From NCBI RefSeq assembly GCF_028649655.1, contig NZ_JAQSLN010000001.1:372001-436000 (forward strand): DNA of 64,000 nt, given 5' to 3'. The notes beneath the pieces were generated by a model that ran no database searches, had not been told where the DNA came from, and saw nothing but the letters and a program-made list of their open reading frames with translations. Positions 28,461-53,268 of this stretch are shown here, in pieces. The position numbers were made by a program, and so were the translations under genes. This DNA comes from Halobacteriovorax sp. GB3 (GTDB taxonomy: Bacteria > Bdellovibrionota > Bacteriovoracia > Bacteriovoracales > Bacteriovoracaceae). The number at the start of each line of letters is the position of its first letter. The first letter of the stretch is position 1.

Positions 28461-29171
28461 ATGATTCTTATGAAAAATCTAATCCTTATGTCTATTTTGG
28501 CCCTCACTATTAACTCATCATTTGCTAGTGGTTGTGGAACGACTCTCGAATGTGAAAACCGCGCGATCGAACTTAATACAAGAAGAAACTCCCACATCTG
28601 TGAGTTTCAAAAAGAGATTCCAACATTCAAAGAAAAAGAAATTAAAGGAAGCATTCGTTATATGGATAGCTTTAGTGGCTCATATCACTATGATGTTCTA
28701 ATGAAAGATGGCAAGACGATTTTCTCAGTAAAGCTTCACCTTCGTTCATTTGATAAATTAGAAGACTGGCAAAAAGACTATTATCGAGAGCAAATTTCCA
28801 TGGCCCTTGATATGTGGAATGATGCAGTTAGGCCTCACTATCCAAATTATGAATTTCAAGTTGAATATGTAGAAAGAAGCGAAGCCTATTTTCGTCCAAA
28901 GCTTGTAACGAATAAGAGATGGCATGGTCGTGGGCCTTATTATGCCGGTTGGTTTTTTTACTGGAGTCCACGAACAATTGCGCATGAATTAGGGCATATG
29001 TTCGGACTTGATGACGAGTACCATAACTCTCTTGCTTCGAGTACATCAGTTTGTGATAGAGAGTCTCTGATGTGTAGTAATGGAAATCCTAATTCTTCGT
29101 TGAAGAAATACCATTTTGATATACTAACAAAAAGAGCTCTAGGAAGTTGTGTGGAAAACGCTACTCGATAG
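28461..29171 (+). CDS. Secreted metzincin-type metalloprotease
   Basis: A 236-residue exported protease. The signal peptide (MKNLILMSILALTINSSFAS) is followed by a Cys-containing pro-region. The zinc site AHELGHMFGLDDEY fits HExxHxxGxxD (H175, E176, H179, G182, D185), the metzincin-like layout with Asp as third ligand seen in snapalysin-type enzymes. A downstream ESLMCSNGNP, with Met placed as in a Met-turn, supports an active fold. It has several cysteines for disulfides. The substrate is probably prey protein. Start at 28461 or the ATG at 28470 three codons on; neither has a clear RBS. The 3' end overlaps the pilus gene by 11 bases. Confidence 0.82.
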   Translation: MILMKNLILMSILALTINSSFASGCGTTLECENRAIELNTRRNSHICEFQKEIPTFKEKEIKGSIRYMDSFSGSYHYDVLMKDGKTIFSVKLHLRSFDKLEDWQKDYYREQISMALDMWNDAVRPHYPNYEFQVEYVERSEAYFRPKLVTNKRWHGRGPYYAGWFFYWSPRTIAHELGHMFGLDDEYHNSLASSTSVCDRESLMCSNGNPNSSLKKYHFDILTKRALGSCVENATR

Positions 29172-30072
29172 TCATTGCCGTAATCGTAATGTAGTCGGTG
29201 TAGAGACCTGATTGTTTATTATTAACATTTCCGATTTTTACACTGACAGTATGAGCATTTCCTTCTTCCGGAGTGACCCCATTACTTTCTGCTAGGGCCT
29301 TACTCGTAGGTAATTTCTTCTTTTTGCCATCTATTTTTAAATCGTAGCTAATTTCATCTCCATTGACTTCATTCTTCATGACTCCACTATTAATAGAGTC
29401 AAAGAAGATCATGTAGCCGGCATTTGAGCGGACTCTAAGATCGAAAGATAGTTCTTCATTTTTCTCTAACTCCCCAAAATCTAGAGTCTGTTCCGTGTCA
29501 TTAATGTTAAATGGCGCACCTTGATCGACAAGAGAGATGTCGACGACTTTTGGAACGAATGTTGAGACCGAAATTGAATTTCTGGCGGAAAGTTCATAGC
29601 GATTATTATTTCTCTGAGTATAAACTGAAACTTGAACAGAATCATTATAGAGTCCACCTCTGACAAGAGGAGCTGAGCCATTTGTCGGAGGACTTAATTT
29701 TGAATAGTAATTCAGTGTTCTTGGCCAAAAGGAGTGAGAGCTAACGATGGTATCGTTAGTTGTTTGTATATCTTGGGCATCCTTTAGAACTTGTGTAGCA
29801 CTACTATCTTTGTAGAAATTGTAATCGACAGTTTCCCCAAAGGCGTGAGTGAGCTTACGATTGTAGGAGTTTGCATTTCCTTTAGAAAAGGTCACGAGAA
29901 AGCTTCTAAAGTAGCAGCTAAAATCTGAAGTTCCATCGACAGTAAAAGAAGTATTAATCACTTGACCTCTTGAAGACCAGTCAAATGATAGATCTTGAAT
30001 TGTTAAATTTGCATCACAGGCAAGAGACCAATTGGTAAATAGGATTAAAATTGATGTTAGGATAATCTTCAT
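29161..30072 (-). CDS. Chaperone-usher pilus tip/adhesin candidate
   Basis: A 303-residue exported protein (signal peptide about residues 1-18, ending SLACDAN) and the last gene of the pilus operon. Two beta-rich halves are seen; the first has paired cysteines (C19, C53) and the second ends GLYTDYITITAMTIE, which resembles the GEYSDTVYFTISAN ending of the major pilin at 33582. A two-domain subunit at the operon end is the usual place for a tip adhesin, and the first half recalls spore-coat-U-type domains. Function as adhesin is inference from order and fold pattern. It is separated from the usher by 15 bases. Confidence 0.65.
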   Translation of the reverse strand: MKIILTSILILFTNWSLACDANLTIQDLSFDWSSRGQVINTSFTVDGTSDFSCYFRSFLVTFSKGNANSYNRKLTHAFGETVDYNFYKDSSATQVLKDAQDIQTTNDTIVSSHSFWPRTLNYYSKLSPPTNGSAPLVRGGLYNDSVQVSVYTQRNNNRYELSARNSISVSTFVPKVVDISLVDQGAPFNINDTEQTLDFGELEKNEELSFDLRVRSNAGYMIFFDSINSGVMKNEVNGDEISYDLKIDGKKKKLPTSKALAESNGVTPEEGNAHTVSVKIGNVNNKQSGLYTDYITITAMTIE

Positions 30073-30087
30073 ATAAATCTCGATTGA

Positions 30088-32499
30088 TTATTCAATGTTA
30101 ACAAGGCCAATATCCTTGAGTCCTTGCTCTTGCGCTGTAATTTTAAAGCGAAACTTCTTATGTTTTATATTGTTGAGCTGTATTTCATAATCTCCAGCAG
30201 TCATTCCTTCCACAAGAAATTCACCTCTTCTTCCAATAAAAAAGAGATGAACTTCTTCTGTTTTAATATTTGTTATACTTCCAGTCTTTAAAGTTAGTGC
30301 TTGGCCTTTTAAACTCATCATCCCTTTGAGAACTACACTTCCTGGTGCACCAATTTTAAGATAGTGACCAGTTTTGTATTTTGGGTAAATAGCTAAGTTC
30401 TCTTTACCAATATTATAACCTTCCTCTAACTGTGATGTATCAAAACTTAGAAGCTTGTAGTGAAAAGGTGCTAAGTTTGTAAGGACGATATCATCAGTAA
30501 GGGAGTTTTCACCTTCGTTGTATCCCGATGTTGTTCTAACACCAATTTTTTGCCCTTTGAGGTATTTGTTGGGGTTAATAATGGCAAAACTTCCGCGAAC
30601 AGGTTGCCCTAAGCGAACTTTGCTACCGACCGCAAGAACTGATCCTTCAAGTTTGATCGTTGTTTTTTTAGAATCCTGACCCGTTTCGTTTTTATCATAG
30701 CGATGAGAAAGTGAAATATTTGCTAGAGGAGAGTGGTACTTCAGAGAGCCTTCCCCCGTTGTCATTTCATTTTGCTTCGTGACAGAAACATTTGAGCTGA
30801 GAGAGTTAACTTGCTTTGACGTTGTCTTGGACCACGTTGCACGCTTTGTTTGAGAAGTACTATCATAATAAGTTGTGACGTACTGATTTTTTTCAGAGAA
30901 ATTTATTGTTACAAATGCGTAGAGTGTTTCATTCCAATTAGAGTATTCATCTTTTTGTTTTGAAGCATAAATATTGGCATTAACTCTTCTGGATATTCTC
31001 GTTGAAAGTGATCCCGTTATTCCATATCGATCATTAAGCTCATCGTATCTTGCTTTTGAAAATTGAAGTGTTGCTCCAATTGATGAGTTACTAAAAATAC
31101 TTGTGTTAACAGATGTTGTAAAAGTCGATGAAAGATTATTTCTTTGATTTAAGTTTCCAAGAGTGGTGAAGTCTTTGGTCGTATAATCTAAACTTGTAAA
31201 GAAAAAGAGGTTTTTCAAAAGATCAATTTGCGAAAGATTCACTTCATATCTAAAAATACCATAGGCACCATTTCGATCAGTATCAAAAGTTTTACTAGTT
31301 GCGAGACCTAAAGAGAGTAGTCCCCACTTAGTTGCATAGGTCTGATTTGTTCCGAGGATTCCTTGAAATTTGTCACCTTGAGAATAAAATTTTGATGTAA
31401 GCTCTTTTGTCATACCCCTTTCATAGTAGAGAGAGAAGGTTGGACCATCTTCTGTGATATATTTCTTATTTTCTGATTCTTGATCAGATTTAATTCCAAT
31501 AGCATAGCTAAAACGATTAACACCTTTTTCGATGAGATCAGTGGAACTAAATTTTGAAAATTGAAAGGTTTTTTCAATTCCAGAATCATCTTTTGCCACA
31601 ACGAGAATATTATTGAGACCACTTTCAAGAGGTACACCAGTTAGAGTGTGCTCTCCTGCTTGAAAATACGCGACTTTTACAAGTCGAGAATTTACATAAA
31701 TTTTAACTTGTGATCTTTCTTCGAGATAGAACTTATGCTTATAAGTTGGGGTTGTTTTTATATAAGGATTTAGTGCAAAGTCTTTAGTCCAGGAGATTCC
31801 AAAAAGATTTCGATAACTTTGTTTTTCAACAGTCTCAAAATTAATGTCTCCTAACTCTGCTCTTTGTTGTCTTTTAGAAGAGTGCCAGAGAAGACGAGTG
31901 TTGGCCCTCTTTAGTTTTGAATCATTACTTTCATAATAATGTTCACTCTCTAGGGTATAGTCTTTAAAACTGTATGCTGGATAGAGATTAAGTCTCGTCT
32001 GACTTTCACTTGTGCTCTTTGAAACAATCTCACTTTGAATGAGATAGTTCATATGAAATGAGTGGCGATCTGGGTACTTAGAACTCTTAGACCAAGAAGG
32101 AGCACCAAGATCTAAACTCCAGTCCTCAATTCGCTTAATTTTTGGATCAATTGTTAGAATGAGTTTGAGTTCATCAGCGAGATAGACAACTTTTACTCCG
32201 AGGTTTTTAAGTTGGTCTGTTTTAATGTTGTCGATGGCCTGAACTTGATTGAGAATATCTTCTTTTACCAATTGCTTTAAAATATATAAAAGATCTTTTG
32301 TGTCGATATGGTTGAGTCTTTCGAGAAGTACATTTGCTTTAACTTCTCCTCGATACTGCCCTTGATAGAAAAGGGGAATCTCAAGAACTTCTTCTTTAAC
32401 TTTCTTCCCAAAGACTTGTTGATAAAGCTTACTCATATCCTCGATGGGATAGGCATTGTTTGATAAAAGTAAAAGAGAGAAGATTATTTTATTGTTCAA
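30088..32499 (-). CDS. Fimbrial outer-membrane usher
   Basis: An 803-residue usher that would form the outer-membrane pore through which pilus subunits are passed. The N-terminal domain contains YRGEVKANVLLERLNHIDT; the barrel contains alternating strands, including TTPTYKHKFYLEERSQVKIYVNSRLVKVAYFQAGEHTLTGVPLESGLNNILVVAKDDSG, the typical usher plug/middle-domain segment. The C-terminal domain carries GEFLVEGMTAGDYEIQL. The signal peptide is at residues 1-18. It starts with TTG and overlaps the chaperone by 11 bases, so translation is coupled and probably weak. The clade is not certain; an archaic or alternate type is likely. Confidence 0.88.
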   Translation of the reverse strand: MNNKIIFSLLLLSNNAYPIEDMSKLYQQVFGKKVKEEVLEIPLFYQGQYRGEVKANVLLERLNHIDTKDLLYILKQLVKEDILNQVQAIDNIKTDQLKNLGVKVVYLADELKLILTIDPKIKRIEDWSLDLGAPSWSKSSKYPDRHSFHMNYLIQSEIVSKSTSESQTRLNLYPAYSFKDYTLESEHYYESNDSKLKRANTRLLWHSSKRQQRAELGDINFETVEKQSYRNLFGISWTKDFALNPYIKTTPTYKHKFYLEERSQVKIYVNSRLVKVAYFQAGEHTLTGVPLESGLNNILVVAKDDSGIEKTFQFSKFSSTDLIEKGVNRFSYAIGIKSDQESENKKYITEDGPTFSLYYERGMTKELTSKFYSQGDKFQGILGTNQTYATKWGLLSLGLATSKTFDTDRNGAYGIFRYEVNLSQIDLLKNLFFFTSLDYTTKDFTTLGNLNQRNNLSSTFTTSVNTSIFSNSSIGATLQFSKARYDELNDRYGITGSLSTRISRRVNANIYASKQKDEYSNWNETLYAFVTINFSEKNQYVTTYYDSTSQTKRATWSKTTSKQVNSLSSNVSVTKQNEMTTGEGSLKYHSPLANISLSHRYDKNETGQDSKKTTIKLEGSVLAVGSKVRLGQPVRGSFAIINPNKYLKGQKIGVRTTSGYNEGENSLTDDIVLTNLAPFHYKLLSFDTSQLEEGYNIGKENLAIYPKYKTGHYLKIGAPGSVVLKGMMSLKGQALTLKTGSITNIKTEEVHLFFIGRRGEFLVEGMTAGDYEIQLNNIKHKKFRFKITAQEQGLKDIGLVNIE

Positions 32500-33181
32500 A
32501 ATCTAAGTCGACCTTTTTAACACGTTCACTTGATGGCAATTCAACTGTAAAAATTCTTGTTTTTCCTTGTAGAATATTTTCACCTGCAAAGTTAGGTAGT
32601 TGAAGTTTTTCAAGTGTTACTTTCTTCTTTGAATTCAAAGTGAAAATTGCTTTAAGGTCATGGAGTACTTGATGGACATTACCTTTATTTGAAATTTCAA
32701 GTGTTAGTTTTTTACCTTTCTGTTCTTTAACTTTGATAGCAAGATCTCTTTTCTCGCTAGAAGGTGAAACATAGACAGCAGCAATATAGCGCAGTAGTAG
32801 TTTAATTCCTTGCTTTTTCTTTGCATTCACATTGATTGGTAATTGTTCAGCGATCAATCGAAAAGATTGTTCATCTTTGATTTCTTTATCTCCTAGCCAC
32901 TGAAGTCGAAGGCTCCTTTTTTCTTTTGGCTTCAAAAAAAGTTGGCTAGGGTAAACTTTAAAAAGTGAACTTGCCAAAGGGTGCTTTTCTTTTCCAAATT
33001 TATCCATTTCTCTTTTGGCCATTGTGACTTCTACGGCAATCACTTCACTGGACTCATTTTCTACATAGACGACATTTTTGAAATCACTTTCTTTTTTTAG
33101 TGAGAGTGTCATCGGCGAGAGTTTAAAAGCATGGGTCGTAAAAGAGACAATAAGAGCAATAAAGAGAAAAAAATATTTCAA
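32489..33181 (-). CDS. Periplasmic pilus assembly chaperone
   Basis: A 230-residue two-domain chaperone. After a signal peptide (MKYFFLFIALIVSFTTHAFK) comes the immunoglobulin-like N-domain with SPMTLSLKKESDFKNVVYVENESSE. FKVYPSQLFLKPKEKRSLRLQW is the conserved G1/F1 region that donates a strand to pilins. The C-domain has LTLEISNKGNVHQVLHDL. The start was set at the TTG at 33181 because GGAAGG lies six bases upstream and it gives a normal signal peptide; the longer frame from 33232 adds 17 residues. The unusual TTG start suggests low translation compared with the pilin. Confidence 0.88.
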   Translation of the reverse strand: MKYFFLFIALIVSFTTHAFKLSPMTLSLKKESDFKNVVYVENESSEVIAVEVTMAKREMDKFGKEKHPLASSLFKVYPSQLFLKPKEKRSLRLQWLGDKEIKDEQSFRLIAEQLPINVNAKKKQGIKLLLRYIAAVYVSPSSEKRDLAIKVKEQKGKKLTLEISNKGNVHQVLHDLKAIFTLNSKKKVTLEKLQLPNFAGENILQGKTRIFTVELPSSERVKKVDLDFEQ

Positions 33182-33203: not shown

Positions 33204-33237
33204 AAGAATAAGAAAGAAGGAGTTATCTTCACTCCTT
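33204..33237 (-). terminator. Hairpin attenuator between pilin genes and chaperone
   Basis: A perfect seven-base stem, AAGGAGT/ACTCCTT with a seven-base loop, covers the stop codon of the 102-residue gene. On the minus strand it is followed by CTTTCTTATTCTT, a T-rich though not pure T tail. It probably reduces readthrough into chaperone and usher. Confidence 0.6.
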
Positions 33238-33544
33238 AGTTATTCATTATATTAAGAGTAAGTGATCTTTTAAAGCTCTTTTCTTTGCTTTTTAGAACAA
33301 TCTGATAATTATTTTGATTAATTTTTTGAAGTTTCCATTTCTTTGAATGGGAGTGAAGAGAGACTTTGAATTTTTGTCTCATATTATTCTCAGTAGAGAT
33401 AAAGATGGTATTTTTTCTTTTGAGATATTGGGCCTTCGCTTCAAGAGTTCCTTGCACTTGGGCCCTCAAATAGAGGTTACCGCTCGTTGAGGCAAGTGAG
33501 GTGAGGGCAATCATGAATAGGGATATAAAAAAAACCGACTTCAT
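33236..33544 (-). CDS. Small minor pilin-like subunit
   Basis: A 102-residue exported protein (signal peptide about residues 1-19) in the pilus operon. The mature N-terminus SGNLYLRAQVQGTLEAKAQ resembles the GTLTLRGVVQELLSIDVQAE start of the major pilin, consistent with a donor strand. The body is short, very basic (many Lys) and half the size of a usual pilin, so it may be a terminating or anchoring subunit, or a shrunken relic. No Shine-Dalgarno sequence precedes its ATG, which sits in the loop of an intrinsic terminator, so expression should be low. Confidence 0.6.
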   Translation of the reverse strand: MKSVFFISLFMIALTSLASTSGNLYLRAQVQGTLEAKAQYLKRKNTIFISTENNMRQKFKVSLHSHSKKWKLQKINQNNYQIVLKSKEKSFKRSLTLNIMNN

Positions 33545-33551
33545 TAGTCGG
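33527..33551 (-). terminator. Pilin terminator with next start codon in its loop
   Basis: On the minus strand CCGACT-AATGA-AGTCGG is followed by eight T residues: a strong intrinsic terminator 30 bases after the major pilin stop. The loop contains the ATG of the following 102-residue gene, and the T-run encodes its first phenylalanines. Readthrough is therefore needed for everything downstream, and folding would mask the start. Confidence 0.85.
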
Positions 33552-33581
33552 CTTTTCGGTATAAAATTTAAAAGACTTTAA

Positions 33582-34052
33582 TTAGTTTGCTGAGATTGTG
33601 AAGTAGACAGTGTCAGAGTATTCACCAGCAACAAGAGCTGTTTGAGCTTGACCAGTATAAGAGATCGTTACATCTTTATCTTCGTCATAATTTCCAGCAG
33701 TTGTTGTTGAGAAATCAGATCCTGAAGATAGATCAACAGTATTTGTTCCATATTTCATCGTATATGTTACTGAACCAACTCCACTGCCGTCTTCGTGGTT
33801 AAGTTTCCCAGAGTTTTGAGATTCTACACGTACTTTATATCCCGTCTTAGAGTTTGATACTTCATTAACTGTAGCGACCTTTAGATCAGTTTGTGACTGA
33901 GTAAGGTCCAGTTGAGTTGCAACACTTTCTGCTTGAACATCAATTGAAAGAAGTTCCTGAACGACACCTCTTAGTGTCAGAGTGCCTTGAGTGGCAGCGA
34001 ATGATGTTGAAGCTGTAAGGGCGATAAGTAGGGCAAGTGCTGATTTTTTCAT
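33582..34052 (-). CDS. Major pilin subunit of chaperone-usher pilus
   Basis: A 156-residue exported protein with signal peptide MKKSALALLIALTASTSFA. The mature chain starts TQGTLTLRGVVQELLSIDV, an alternating hydrophobic donor-strand extension, and ends GEYSDTVYFTISAN, a typical last beta strand. It has no cysteines and is rich in Ser, Thr and Gly, like alternate or archaic pilins. The strong RBS (AGGAGAG) and ATG, first place after a sigma-54 promoter, and a terminator directly behind it mark it as the most highly expressed gene of the operon. It is probably the main shaft subunit used in attachment. Confidence 0.8.
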   Translation of the reverse strand: MKKSALALLIALTASTSFAATQGTLTLRGVVQELLSIDVQAESVATQLDLTQSQTDLKVATVNEVSNSKTGYKVRVESQNSGKLNHEDGSGVGSVTYTMKYGTNTVDLSSGSDFSTTTAGNYDEDKDVTISYTGQAQTALVAGEYSDTVYFTISAN

Positions 34053-34119: not shown

Positions 34120-34137
34120 ATGCAATCAGAGGGCCAA
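34120..34137 (-). promoter_or_regulatory. Sigma-54 promoter of the pilus operon
   Basis: On the minus strand TTGGCCCTCTGATTGCAT carries the invariant GG (-24) and GC (-12) exactly ten bases apart, with TGGC and TTGCA matching the sigma-54 consensus. The transcript would start near 34110, about 58 bases before the pilin ATG at 34052. Confidence 0.75.
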
Positions 34138-34217: not shown

Positions 34218-34368
34218 GTTAATCATGCTTAAACTAGATTGTTAGGAGAGCCTAACTTTAGATTTAAGTAAGAAAAGAAAGCTATATGCTTAAAATTTAG
34301 TTGGACGGGAGGCGGAATTAAGTTATTTTGCTCTTGTTAATTAAGTTTTAGAAAGTAAGGGGCAACCC

Positions 34369-51057: not shown

Positions 51058-51071
51058 TTTAACTCGTTAAA
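51058..51071. repeat. TTTAAC-TC-GTTAAA inverted repeat
   Basis: A perfect six-base inverted repeat with a two-base spacer, 32 bases before the ATG of the large exported protein, in the gap between it and the divergent TIGR02147 gene. Possible operator. Confidence 0.3.
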
Positions 51072-51102
51072 GTTTACGCTCAGAATAGCCGACAAGAATG
51101 GT

Positions 51103-53268
51103 ATGAAATACGTGTTTTCACCCATTTTACTATTCATTCTCATAACGACAGCGCGAGCAGAGTTTCGTGAAATTAGTGATTGTGGGGATAATCAGAGTGG
51201 TCTAAGTCAAATCAAAGACCTTGGTGGAGTCACTGTAATTGGTGAAAAAGATGATTATGGGGAGTGTTTTTTTACGATCTCTCCCAATACAAATTCCAAT
51301 CATCGTTCATTAACATTTAAAAACGATGGAAAGATGAATGTCTTTCTCGACTATGGGAAAATTGGGGGAGCAAAAGAATATGGCTTCTATCCTGTTCAAA
51401 ATAAAGTTCAAGTCTTTTTTGATGAAGGAAGTGGAAAGATAAAAGTTATTCATGCCTCAGGTGATGAATTCTTTATCAATTCAAGTGACGGAAGTATCGA
51501 TGAATCGATGACAACCGATATCACCATTAAACAACATGAACTCAAAGCGGGATCCAATGCTGGATTCTCTATGTTTGCACCAAATAATATTCTAATCAAT
51601 TACGGTGCGACTTTGCATAAATCTCCAATTGAATATCCACATAGAGAAATTCTTTTAGAAGATAGGAGAGGTAATTATTGTTCCGTTAAGGCCAAGGATA
51701 TCCACTTATACAAAATTCGTTGCTCCGAAGATCATCCCGTATGTGGATGTGAAGGAGATCTGACTAAAACGTGTGATGTTCCAAGTAGTCAGATTAGTGG
51801 TGCTTCAATAGAAGATGCTCTAATGAAAAGTGACTTTCCAGAAATTTTATCGACTCTCTGTCCTGACGTATCTCTAAAAAAAATGCCTGAGAGAAAGAGA
51901 GTAAAACCAATTGTTCCTGTAAAAGTTGAAAAACCTGAAGTGATTGTTGCACCAGTGCCACCAGTTGACCCTCCTAAAAAAGAAGTTAAGACGCCAGCAC
52001 AATTAGATCTTGAAGCTCGTAGAAGAGCTAATATTGAAGCTGCCAAACTATTATTAAAAAATACGAAAGCACCAAAAGTTGTGGTTCCTGCTGAATCTGA
52101 GACAGCTAATGTTAAAGAGATTATTAAACCTAAGAAAAAACCGAAACAACCGCTTGCTGAAATACCATCACTTAATGTTAAGAAGAAGCCAATTGTAAAG
52201 CAACCAGTCCCTGCAGTTGTATCAATTGAGATACCGGCTCAAGAGATTGAACAAGCAATTGTTCAAAATGACTCTGAAGAAAAGAATGAATTTGATCTCA
52301 TTTCATTTGATCAGGATCTCGAAATTCCTGAGGCCCCTGTACAGCTAGTTCCTAAGAGAGCTCCTACTGCTAGAAGTGGTGCTAGCACATTGAAACCAGG
52401 CAAGAACCCAATTCAGCCTGTCGCTGTGATTTCTCCTGTTAAACCAGGTAAAGAACCACGCTTTGATAGTATTCCTGAAGTGGCCTCTTTCAAAGAAGAT
52501 CCGATCGATACGCAAATTGCAAAGGATCTAAATCTTAATTGTCGTCTTATTTTAAAGGACTTTTTTGATGATCCAAAAAATCAGGATGCCATCAATGAAT
52601 ATATCCAAACTCAGGGAAAAATTACTTTACACCGACTGGCCTGGACTTACTTAAAGTCCTCTGAAGCTGATGCTAGACCTGTTGAACAGGTGATTAAGGA
52701 CCTCCTGATAAAAAGAGATCCAAAGTTACATAAGAAGTTCATAGATAAGAAACTAGGTTCAAAGAACCAAAGGCTTCTTGAAGTTATGAGTGAATTAAAA
52801 GAGGTGAGTGAAAGCTATTCATCTAAAGAATCGATGCCTTATTCCCTAAAGTACGGAGATGTAAAAATGATGGAACTTCTCGTTCGATCCGAGAAGAGAT
52901 ATGGTCCAACTCCAGAAGTGGGAATGATGAATTTTCTTAATATCATTTCAAATTCCTACAAGAGCCGTCTTAAAAATAAGAGACACAATAAGTTAAAAGT
53001 AGAAAAGATACTTACTGGTCTTGTTAGTAAAATGAATTCTTTCGAAAAGAGAGTCAATCGTTACCTTGTTCAAAATAATTGTACAAAGCAATCTGATCTC
53101 ATTTCATGTCCTAGAAAAGAGGAAGCAAATGAGCCAATCGATTTTAGTAAAGTGAGTCAAATCCAAGAAGATATTGTTGATCAAATTTATGCTAAACAAT
53201 TTGAAAGAGACAAAGAGCTAGAGAATAATTTTAAATGGGGAAATTATTGGCTTCATGTAACAAATTAA
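51103..53268 (+). CDS. Large exported Lys/Pro-rich protein, unknown function
   Basis: A 721-residue protein that I do not recognise. A signal peptide (about residues 1-19, ending ARAEF) leads to a beta-rich domain of about 200 residues with several Cys (including CGCEGDLTKTC). The middle (about 260-460) is a long low-complexity linker rich in Pro, Lys, Val and Glu (VPVKVEKPEVIVAPVPPVDPP and similar), as in proteins that span the periplasm or cell wall (TonB-like). The C-terminal 245 residues are helical and charged. The region suggests an envelope-spanning or anchored structural protein. There is no convincing RBS. Its stop overlaps rlmN at TTAA. Confidence 0.75.
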   Translation: MKYVFSPILLFILITTARAEFREISDCGDNQSGLSQIKDLGGVTVIGEKDDYGECFFTISPNTNSNHRSLTFKNDGKMNVFLDYGKIGGAKEYGFYPVQNKVQVFFDEGSGKIKVIHASGDEFFINSSDGSIDESMTTDITIKQHELKAGSNAGFSMFAPNNILINYGATLHKSPIEYPHREILLEDRRGNYCSVKAKDIHLYKIRCSEDHPVCGCEGDLTKTCDVPSSQISGASIEDALMKSDFPEILSTLCPDVSLKKMPERKRVKPIVPVKVEKPEVIVAPVPPVDPPKKEVKTPAQLDLEARRRANIEAAKLLLKNTKAPKVVVPAESETANVKEIIKPKKKPKQPLAEIPSLNVKKKPIVKQPVPAVVSIEIPAQEIEQAIVQNDSEEKNEFDLISFDQDLEIPEAPVQLVPKRAPTARSGASTLKPGKNPIQPVAVISPVKPGKEPRFDSIPEVASFKEDPIDTQIAKDLNLNCRLILKDFFDDPKNQDAINEYIQTQGKITLHRLAWTYLKSSEADARPVEQVIKDLLIKRDPKLHKKFIDKKLGSKNQRLLEVMSELKEVSESYSSKESMPYSLKYGDVKMMELLVRSEKRYGPTPEVGMMNFLNIISNSYKSRLKNKRHNKLKVEKILTGLVSKMNSFEKRVNRYLVQNNCTKQSDLISCPRKEEANEPIDFSKVSQIQEDIVDQIYAKQFERDKELENNFKWGNYWLHVTN

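Follow-up and report, generated by a model that had tools for sequence, protein, structure and literature searches.

The pilus locus of Halobacteriovorax sp. GB3 raises the question of how a gene can be expressed when its start codon lies in the loop of what looks like the terminator of the gene before it. In the 64,000-nucleotide stretch of DNA analysed here (the window), the minus strand downstream of the major pilin gene reads CCGACT (33551-33546), AATGA (33545-33541) and AGTCGG (33540-33535), with a run of eight T residues (33534-33527) directly after the 3' arm; the ATG of the next gene, which encodes a small secreted protein, occupies positions 33544-33542 in the loop, and the T-run falls within its signal-peptide codons. 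Reading the sequence directly bears out the initial annotation on this arrangement and on the lack of a Shine-Dalgarno sequence before this ATG; the major pilin, by contrast, has AGGAGA. When flanking A/T pairs are counted, the stem-loop spans 33529..33557 and comprises 12 pairs (5' arm 33557-33546, 3' arm 33540-33529) with a minimum free energy of -14.4 kcal/mol, as compared with -4.0 +/- 1.9 kcal/mol for shuffled sequences (z -5.6; 0/200 as low). With its G+C-rich stem, short loop and following T-run it has the features of an intrinsic terminator, and we infer that it looks like a Rho-independent terminator at which transcription of the major pilin would end. That such a terminator follows the pilin had been proposed in the initial annotation, and the stem, the T-run and compensatory changes in one clade of relatives support it. 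A hairpin arising by chance from signal-peptide codons was ruled out by the shuffles together with control gene starts, and no Rfam covariance model matched the site above its gathering score. Starting at the pilin stop codon and continuing into the small ORF, the minus strand runs TAA-T-TAAAG-TCTTTTAAATTTTATA-CCGAAAA-GCCGACTA-ATG-AAGTCGG-TTTTTTTT, so that the stem-loop overlaps a -10 element and the predicted RNA start as well as the ATG and initial codons of the small gene.

All genes of the locus lie on the minus strand. The major pilin (33582..34052; 156 aa, with a signal peptide), assigned from its ORF and syntenic homologues, has no Pfam match above cut-off. The small gene (33236..33544) would encode 102 aa, and judging by the recurrent gene order and by the signal-peptide start in its homologues this ORF is a real gene; the homologues are syntenic, 68-121 aa long, and have a signal peptide that begins at the corresponding codon. 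Its description as pilin-like in the initial annotation holds in one respect, because a LxLRGxV segment just after the signal peptide is common to this protein and the major pilin, but it gains nothing from Pfam or NCBIfam, where there was no match, or from the predicted fold, which had no significant match in a fold search. We refer to the protein as the mini-pilin; it and its homologues have a mature part of about 50-100 aa with a conserved LxLRGxVP segment and a near-invariant Asn. Downstream lie a periplasmic chaperone (32489..33163; 224 aa from TTG), an outer-membrane usher (30088..32499) and a spore-coat-U (SCPU) domain protein (29161..30072). The chaperone has weak Ig-like Pfam matches, and its presumed PapD-like identity follows from its size and its syntenic position, preceded by the small gene and followed by the usher. 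For the usher, a profile built from 15 relatives has a match to FimD (E about 5e-9), and the SCPU protein (PF05229, E 3e-12) is a probable tip subunit. In three loci of one genus (g3; L045, L046, L049) a second full-length pilin gene lies between mini-pilin and chaperone, and the mini-pilin has a GTG start with a Shine-Dalgarno sequence and no leaderless ATG.

The initial annotation had the small gene depend on read-through from the pilin. Against this, the 37-nt gap between the pilin stop codon and the small-gene ATG holds TAAAG-N16-CCGAAA, which resembles a FliA (sigma-28) promoter. Its -35 element TAAAG (33576..33580), 1 nt past the pilin stop codon, is conserved in relatives, and its -10 element CCGAAAA (33553..33559), 8 nt upstream of the ATG, reads CCGATAA in many of them. 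For Bdellovibrio bacteriovorus, start sites mapped in the attack phase yield the FliA consensus TTAAG-N16-CCGATA (Karunker 2013, PMC3627812); the window promoter agrees with it at 10/11 positions, with one mismatch in the -10 element CCGAAA. FliA itself is encoded in the genome (TIGR02479, 272 bits, above the curated cut-off). For comparison, the loci of relatives were found via the usher in other genomes of the phylum, and the DNA upstream of the usher was examined. The strict pattern T[ACT]A[AG]G-N15/16-[CA]CGA precedes the small gene in 26 of the first 29 loci (0.019 expected per stretch), and a FliA-type motif is present upstream of the small gene in 61/61 usher loci at a match of at least 9/11; a match of at least 10/11 is found in 53/61, versus 0.6% of random stretches from the same loci. 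An alternative form of the FliA site, TAAAGTTT-N11-GCCGATAA, gave mixed results under fixed scoring, and the signal was clear only with the N16 spacing of the Bdellovibrio consensus. These data suggest that the gap separating the pilin stop codon from the small-gene ATG contains a FliA promoter and that FliA is the sigma factor that would use it.

The position of this promoter also offers an explanation for the missing Shine-Dalgarno sequence. In Campylobacter jejuni, the distance from the sigma-28 -10 element to the mapped start downstream of it is 6-8 nt (PMC3847290). Measured from the end of the 7-nt element CCGANNN to the start codon, the spacing is 6-12 nt in 54/61 loci, mostly 7-9 and exactly 7 in 28, so that by the C. 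jejuni spacing the RNA is expected to begin 0-3 nt before the start codon or at it; in the window, the predicted start falls at 33544..33547 on the minus strand, 0-3 nt upstream of the ATG, a placement that also draws on the 6-9 nt spacing of most relatives. A Shine-Dalgarno-like sequence is present in only 2 of the 54 short-spacing loci, versus 6 of the 7 loci in which the spacing is at least 18 nt (for example AAGGAG); the Fisher p of 3e-6 is indicative, as these 61 loci are phylogenetically related and p-values are consequently too small. For comparison, a Shine-Dalgarno sequence precedes 18/23 major pilin starts in those loci. Most likely, the small gene is leaderless, and initiation of this kind would account for the absence of a Shine-Dalgarno sequence. 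An in-frame ATG 30 nt downstream (33514) was ruled out as the true start, because the signal peptide would lose its charged beginning and because the homologues begin at the upstream codon. Searches of the genome with fixed patterns gave about four credible leaderless FliA starts, the other three of which have no comparable terminator. A second predicted start of this kind is in the window, where TAAAGTTTACGCTCAGAATAGCCGACAAGAATGGTATG precedes a 501-aa secreted protein (MKYVFSPILLFILITTARA..., 51068-52608, plus strand) and lacks a T-run terminator. Further predicted starts in this genome (L090, C1:526196; L086, C1:250006) precede ORFs for a 312-aa lipoprotein-like and a 365-aa membrane-protein-like product, respectively.

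The promoter motif, its spacing from the start codon, the signal-peptide start and the hairpin are conserved among relatives, as is the division between short-spacing loci and Shine-Dalgarno-bearing ones. The main family, to which several Bacteriovoracaceae and Halobacteriovoraceae assemblies belong as well as Halobacteriovorax marinus 36_234_T64, has the gene order major pilin, small secreted protein (68-121 aa), chaperone and usher. A second family (f6; L058-L060, L116-L130), probably Bdellovibrionaceae, keeps the small gene, chaperone and usher as well as the leaderless FliA start and has a conserved 655-aa sensor-like protein upstream in place of the pilin; no major pilin gene was seen in its stretches upstream of the usher. 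Of the 46 pilin-type loci, 31 have a terminator-like hairpin that spans the start with a free energy of -8 kcal/mol or below, and the median of all 46 is -14.6 kcal/mol. When the RNA is cut at the predicted FliA start, the median falls to -1.8, because the 5' arm of the hairpin is left untranscribed; control starts (chaperone, usher and pilin genes) gave nothing comparable, with medians of 0 to -2.4. Start-spanning hairpins are also found in 8/15 loci with a different upstream gene, so that the link between hairpin and pilin is only modest (p 0.014), and confinement of the hairpin to loci with a pilin upstream is only weakly true.

The register of the hairpin relative to the promoter differs between loci. 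The 5' arm lies between the -10 element and the ATG in the window, L037, L055 and L057 and contains the -10 element in L053, L056 and L062, and the -10 element falls within the 3' arm in L100 and L110. In L042, L045, L046, L049, L051, L067, L108 and L115, the terminator is upstream of the -35 element or overlaps it; several loci in which no terminator is embedded carry a distinct one ahead of the promoter, and in L039, L047, L105 and L131 no clear terminator was seen in the junction. Among eight relatives of one clade with identical register, 93% of cells pair, compared with 32-46% in slid controls, and 5/9 stem pairs have changed on both sides. A terminator in the gap is thus kept in most loci, and an ATG in the loop is one of several geometries. 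The initial annotation had named covariation of the stem and of the ATG position as a check: the stem is indeed kept by compensatory change in that clade, but the position of the ATG varies between genera.

Upstream of the major pilin, TGGCCC-TCTGA-TTGCA (34121..34136, minus strand) is a candidate sigma-54-type -24/-12 promoter that agrees at 10/11 positions with TGGCAC-N5-TTGCA, including GG at -24 and GC at -12, and ends about 68 nt upstream of the pilin ATG. RpoN is encoded in the genome. In 11/25 loci the 250 nt preceding the pilin contain a match of at least 9/11, versus 0.016 expected; in several other loci the -24 half is at a similar position and the -12 half is degenerate, with the -12 GC lost, so that the case is weaker there. 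The major pilin is probably transcribed from its own sigma-54 promoter and, since a sigma-54-type promoter lies at the pilin and a FliA promoter at the small gene, the locus appears to be split, with the major pilin under sigma-54 and the assembly genes under FliA. Between the pilin and the divergent gene upstream of it, an inverted repeat, GTTAGGAGAGCCTAAC (34241-34256), is possibly a regulator site or a terminator.

Combining these observations, we consider it highly probable that the pilin unit is insulated by an intrinsic terminator that is overlapped by a leaderless FliA promoter serving a mini-pilin/chaperone/usher/tip unit. In this model, pilin transcription, probably from the sigma-54 promoter, would end at the hairpin, and FliA RNA polymerase would bind TAAAG-N16-CCGAAAA in the gap and start RNA at about the ATG. 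The resulting RNA would be immune to the terminator because the 5' arm of the hairpin is absent from the transcript; its T-run would be ordinary signal-peptide coding sequence, and ribosomes would initiate at the 5'-terminal AUG without a Shine-Dalgarno sequence, giving translation of the small gene. Read-through RNA would yield little small protein because its AUG lies in the hairpin loop and lacks a Shine-Dalgarno sequence. The outcome would be two separately controlled units, with abundant pilin on the one hand and the mini-pilin, chaperone, usher and tip subunit on the FliA programme of motile, attack-phase cells on the other.

Whether the overlap is itself selected is a separate matter. 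We suggest tentatively, at a little short of an even chance, that it is a device that runs the two sigma factors' halves independently: a selected palindrome stops the pilin polymerase and blocks translation of read-through RNA, and FliA starts inside it to give an mRNA without the 5' arm, which makes the terminator self-exempting. A variant compatible with the insulated-promoter model, to which we attach a somewhat lower but still substantial likelihood, is that an ordinary terminator and an ordinary promoter overlap, unselected, because the gap is short. About 43 nt are required for promoter plus start, in gaps that often measure 26-60 nt, several relatives keep terminator and promoter apart, and the variation in register between genera means that the precise overlap may simply follow from the short gap; however, the overlap recurs in many genera, compensatory change keeps it in one clade, and the other leaderless FliA starts of this genome lack such a hairpin.

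The strong conserved hairpin, the ATG in its loop and the missing Shine-Dalgarno sequence would also suit a single pilin operon, as in the initial annotation, in which the hairpin attenuates read-through, hides the next start and sets the ratio of major to minor subunit, with a melting factor as the switch. This we regard as unlikely, given the conserved FliA promoter between pilin and ATG and given that other relatives place the ATG within an arm or beyond the hairpin, or have a separate upstream terminator; as the position of ATG and hairpin differs among relatives, hiding of the start is not conserved. Since the FliA-driven mRNA would lack the 5' arm, no melting factor would be needed, and the start could be hidden only on whatever read-through RNA remains. 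The inverted repeat might also be mainly a protein-binding site or a stabiliser of the mRNA 3' end, as 3' hairpins often stabilise pilin mRNAs and as no clear T-run accompanies the long inverted repeats of L047 and L105. In most loci, however, the 3' arm runs straight into a T-run, and the arm sequences are too different between genera for one shared protein site; this reading is unlikely as well.

If the insulated-promoter model is correct, a compact bacterial locus can assign the subunit gene of a pilus and its assembly genes to different sigma factors with no need for a spacer. The model predicts that a chaperone-usher pilus in Bdellovibrio-like bacteria is part of the FliA programme characteristic of motile, prey-hunting cells, and it provides one of the few examples of a predicted leaderless start that persists between genera and probably between families. 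Natural alternatives with a leader of at least 18 nt and a Shine-Dalgarno sequence make the trade-off between leaderless and leadered starts testable.

The component parts of this arrangement are already known; the composite is new as far as the literature was searched, with few subscription journals covered: searches on overlapping terminators and promoters, on leaderless FliA genes and on Bdellovibrio chaperone-usher pili gave no description of it. In the chaperone-usher operons with papA-papH and cfaB-cfaC, an intercistronic hairpin behind the major subunit gene reduces expression of the assembly genes that follow, which share one transcript with the major subunit. The locus described here has a hairpin at this position too and differs from them in that an alternative-sigma promoter of its own overlaps the hairpin and in that the next gene is apparently leaderless. 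As in archaic (SCPU-type) chaperone-usher pili such as Csu, pilin, chaperone, usher and SCPU tip genes lie in a row; unlike in Csu, a conserved mini-pilin of 68-121 aa heads the assembly unit. The FliA attack-phase regulon of Bdellovibrio offers a parallel in its TTAAG-N16-CCGATA consensus and in a pilus operon under the flagellar sigma factor, the TAD pilus operon being FliA-driven (PMC3627812; PMC5430801); the portions of these two papers available to us differ from the present case in making no mention of chaperone-usher pili, leaderless starts or terminator overlap. Finally, the leaderless C. jejuni gene cj0153c has a -10 element just before its ATG and splits a series of genes into two units (PMC3847290), as the promoter immediately upstream of the ATG would do here. 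In that system the promoters are of the sigma-70 type, no overlapping terminator is described and leaderless status is poorly conserved (PMC3847290), whereas here the promoter is of the sigma-28 type and the predicted leaderless start is kept across genera and probably across families.
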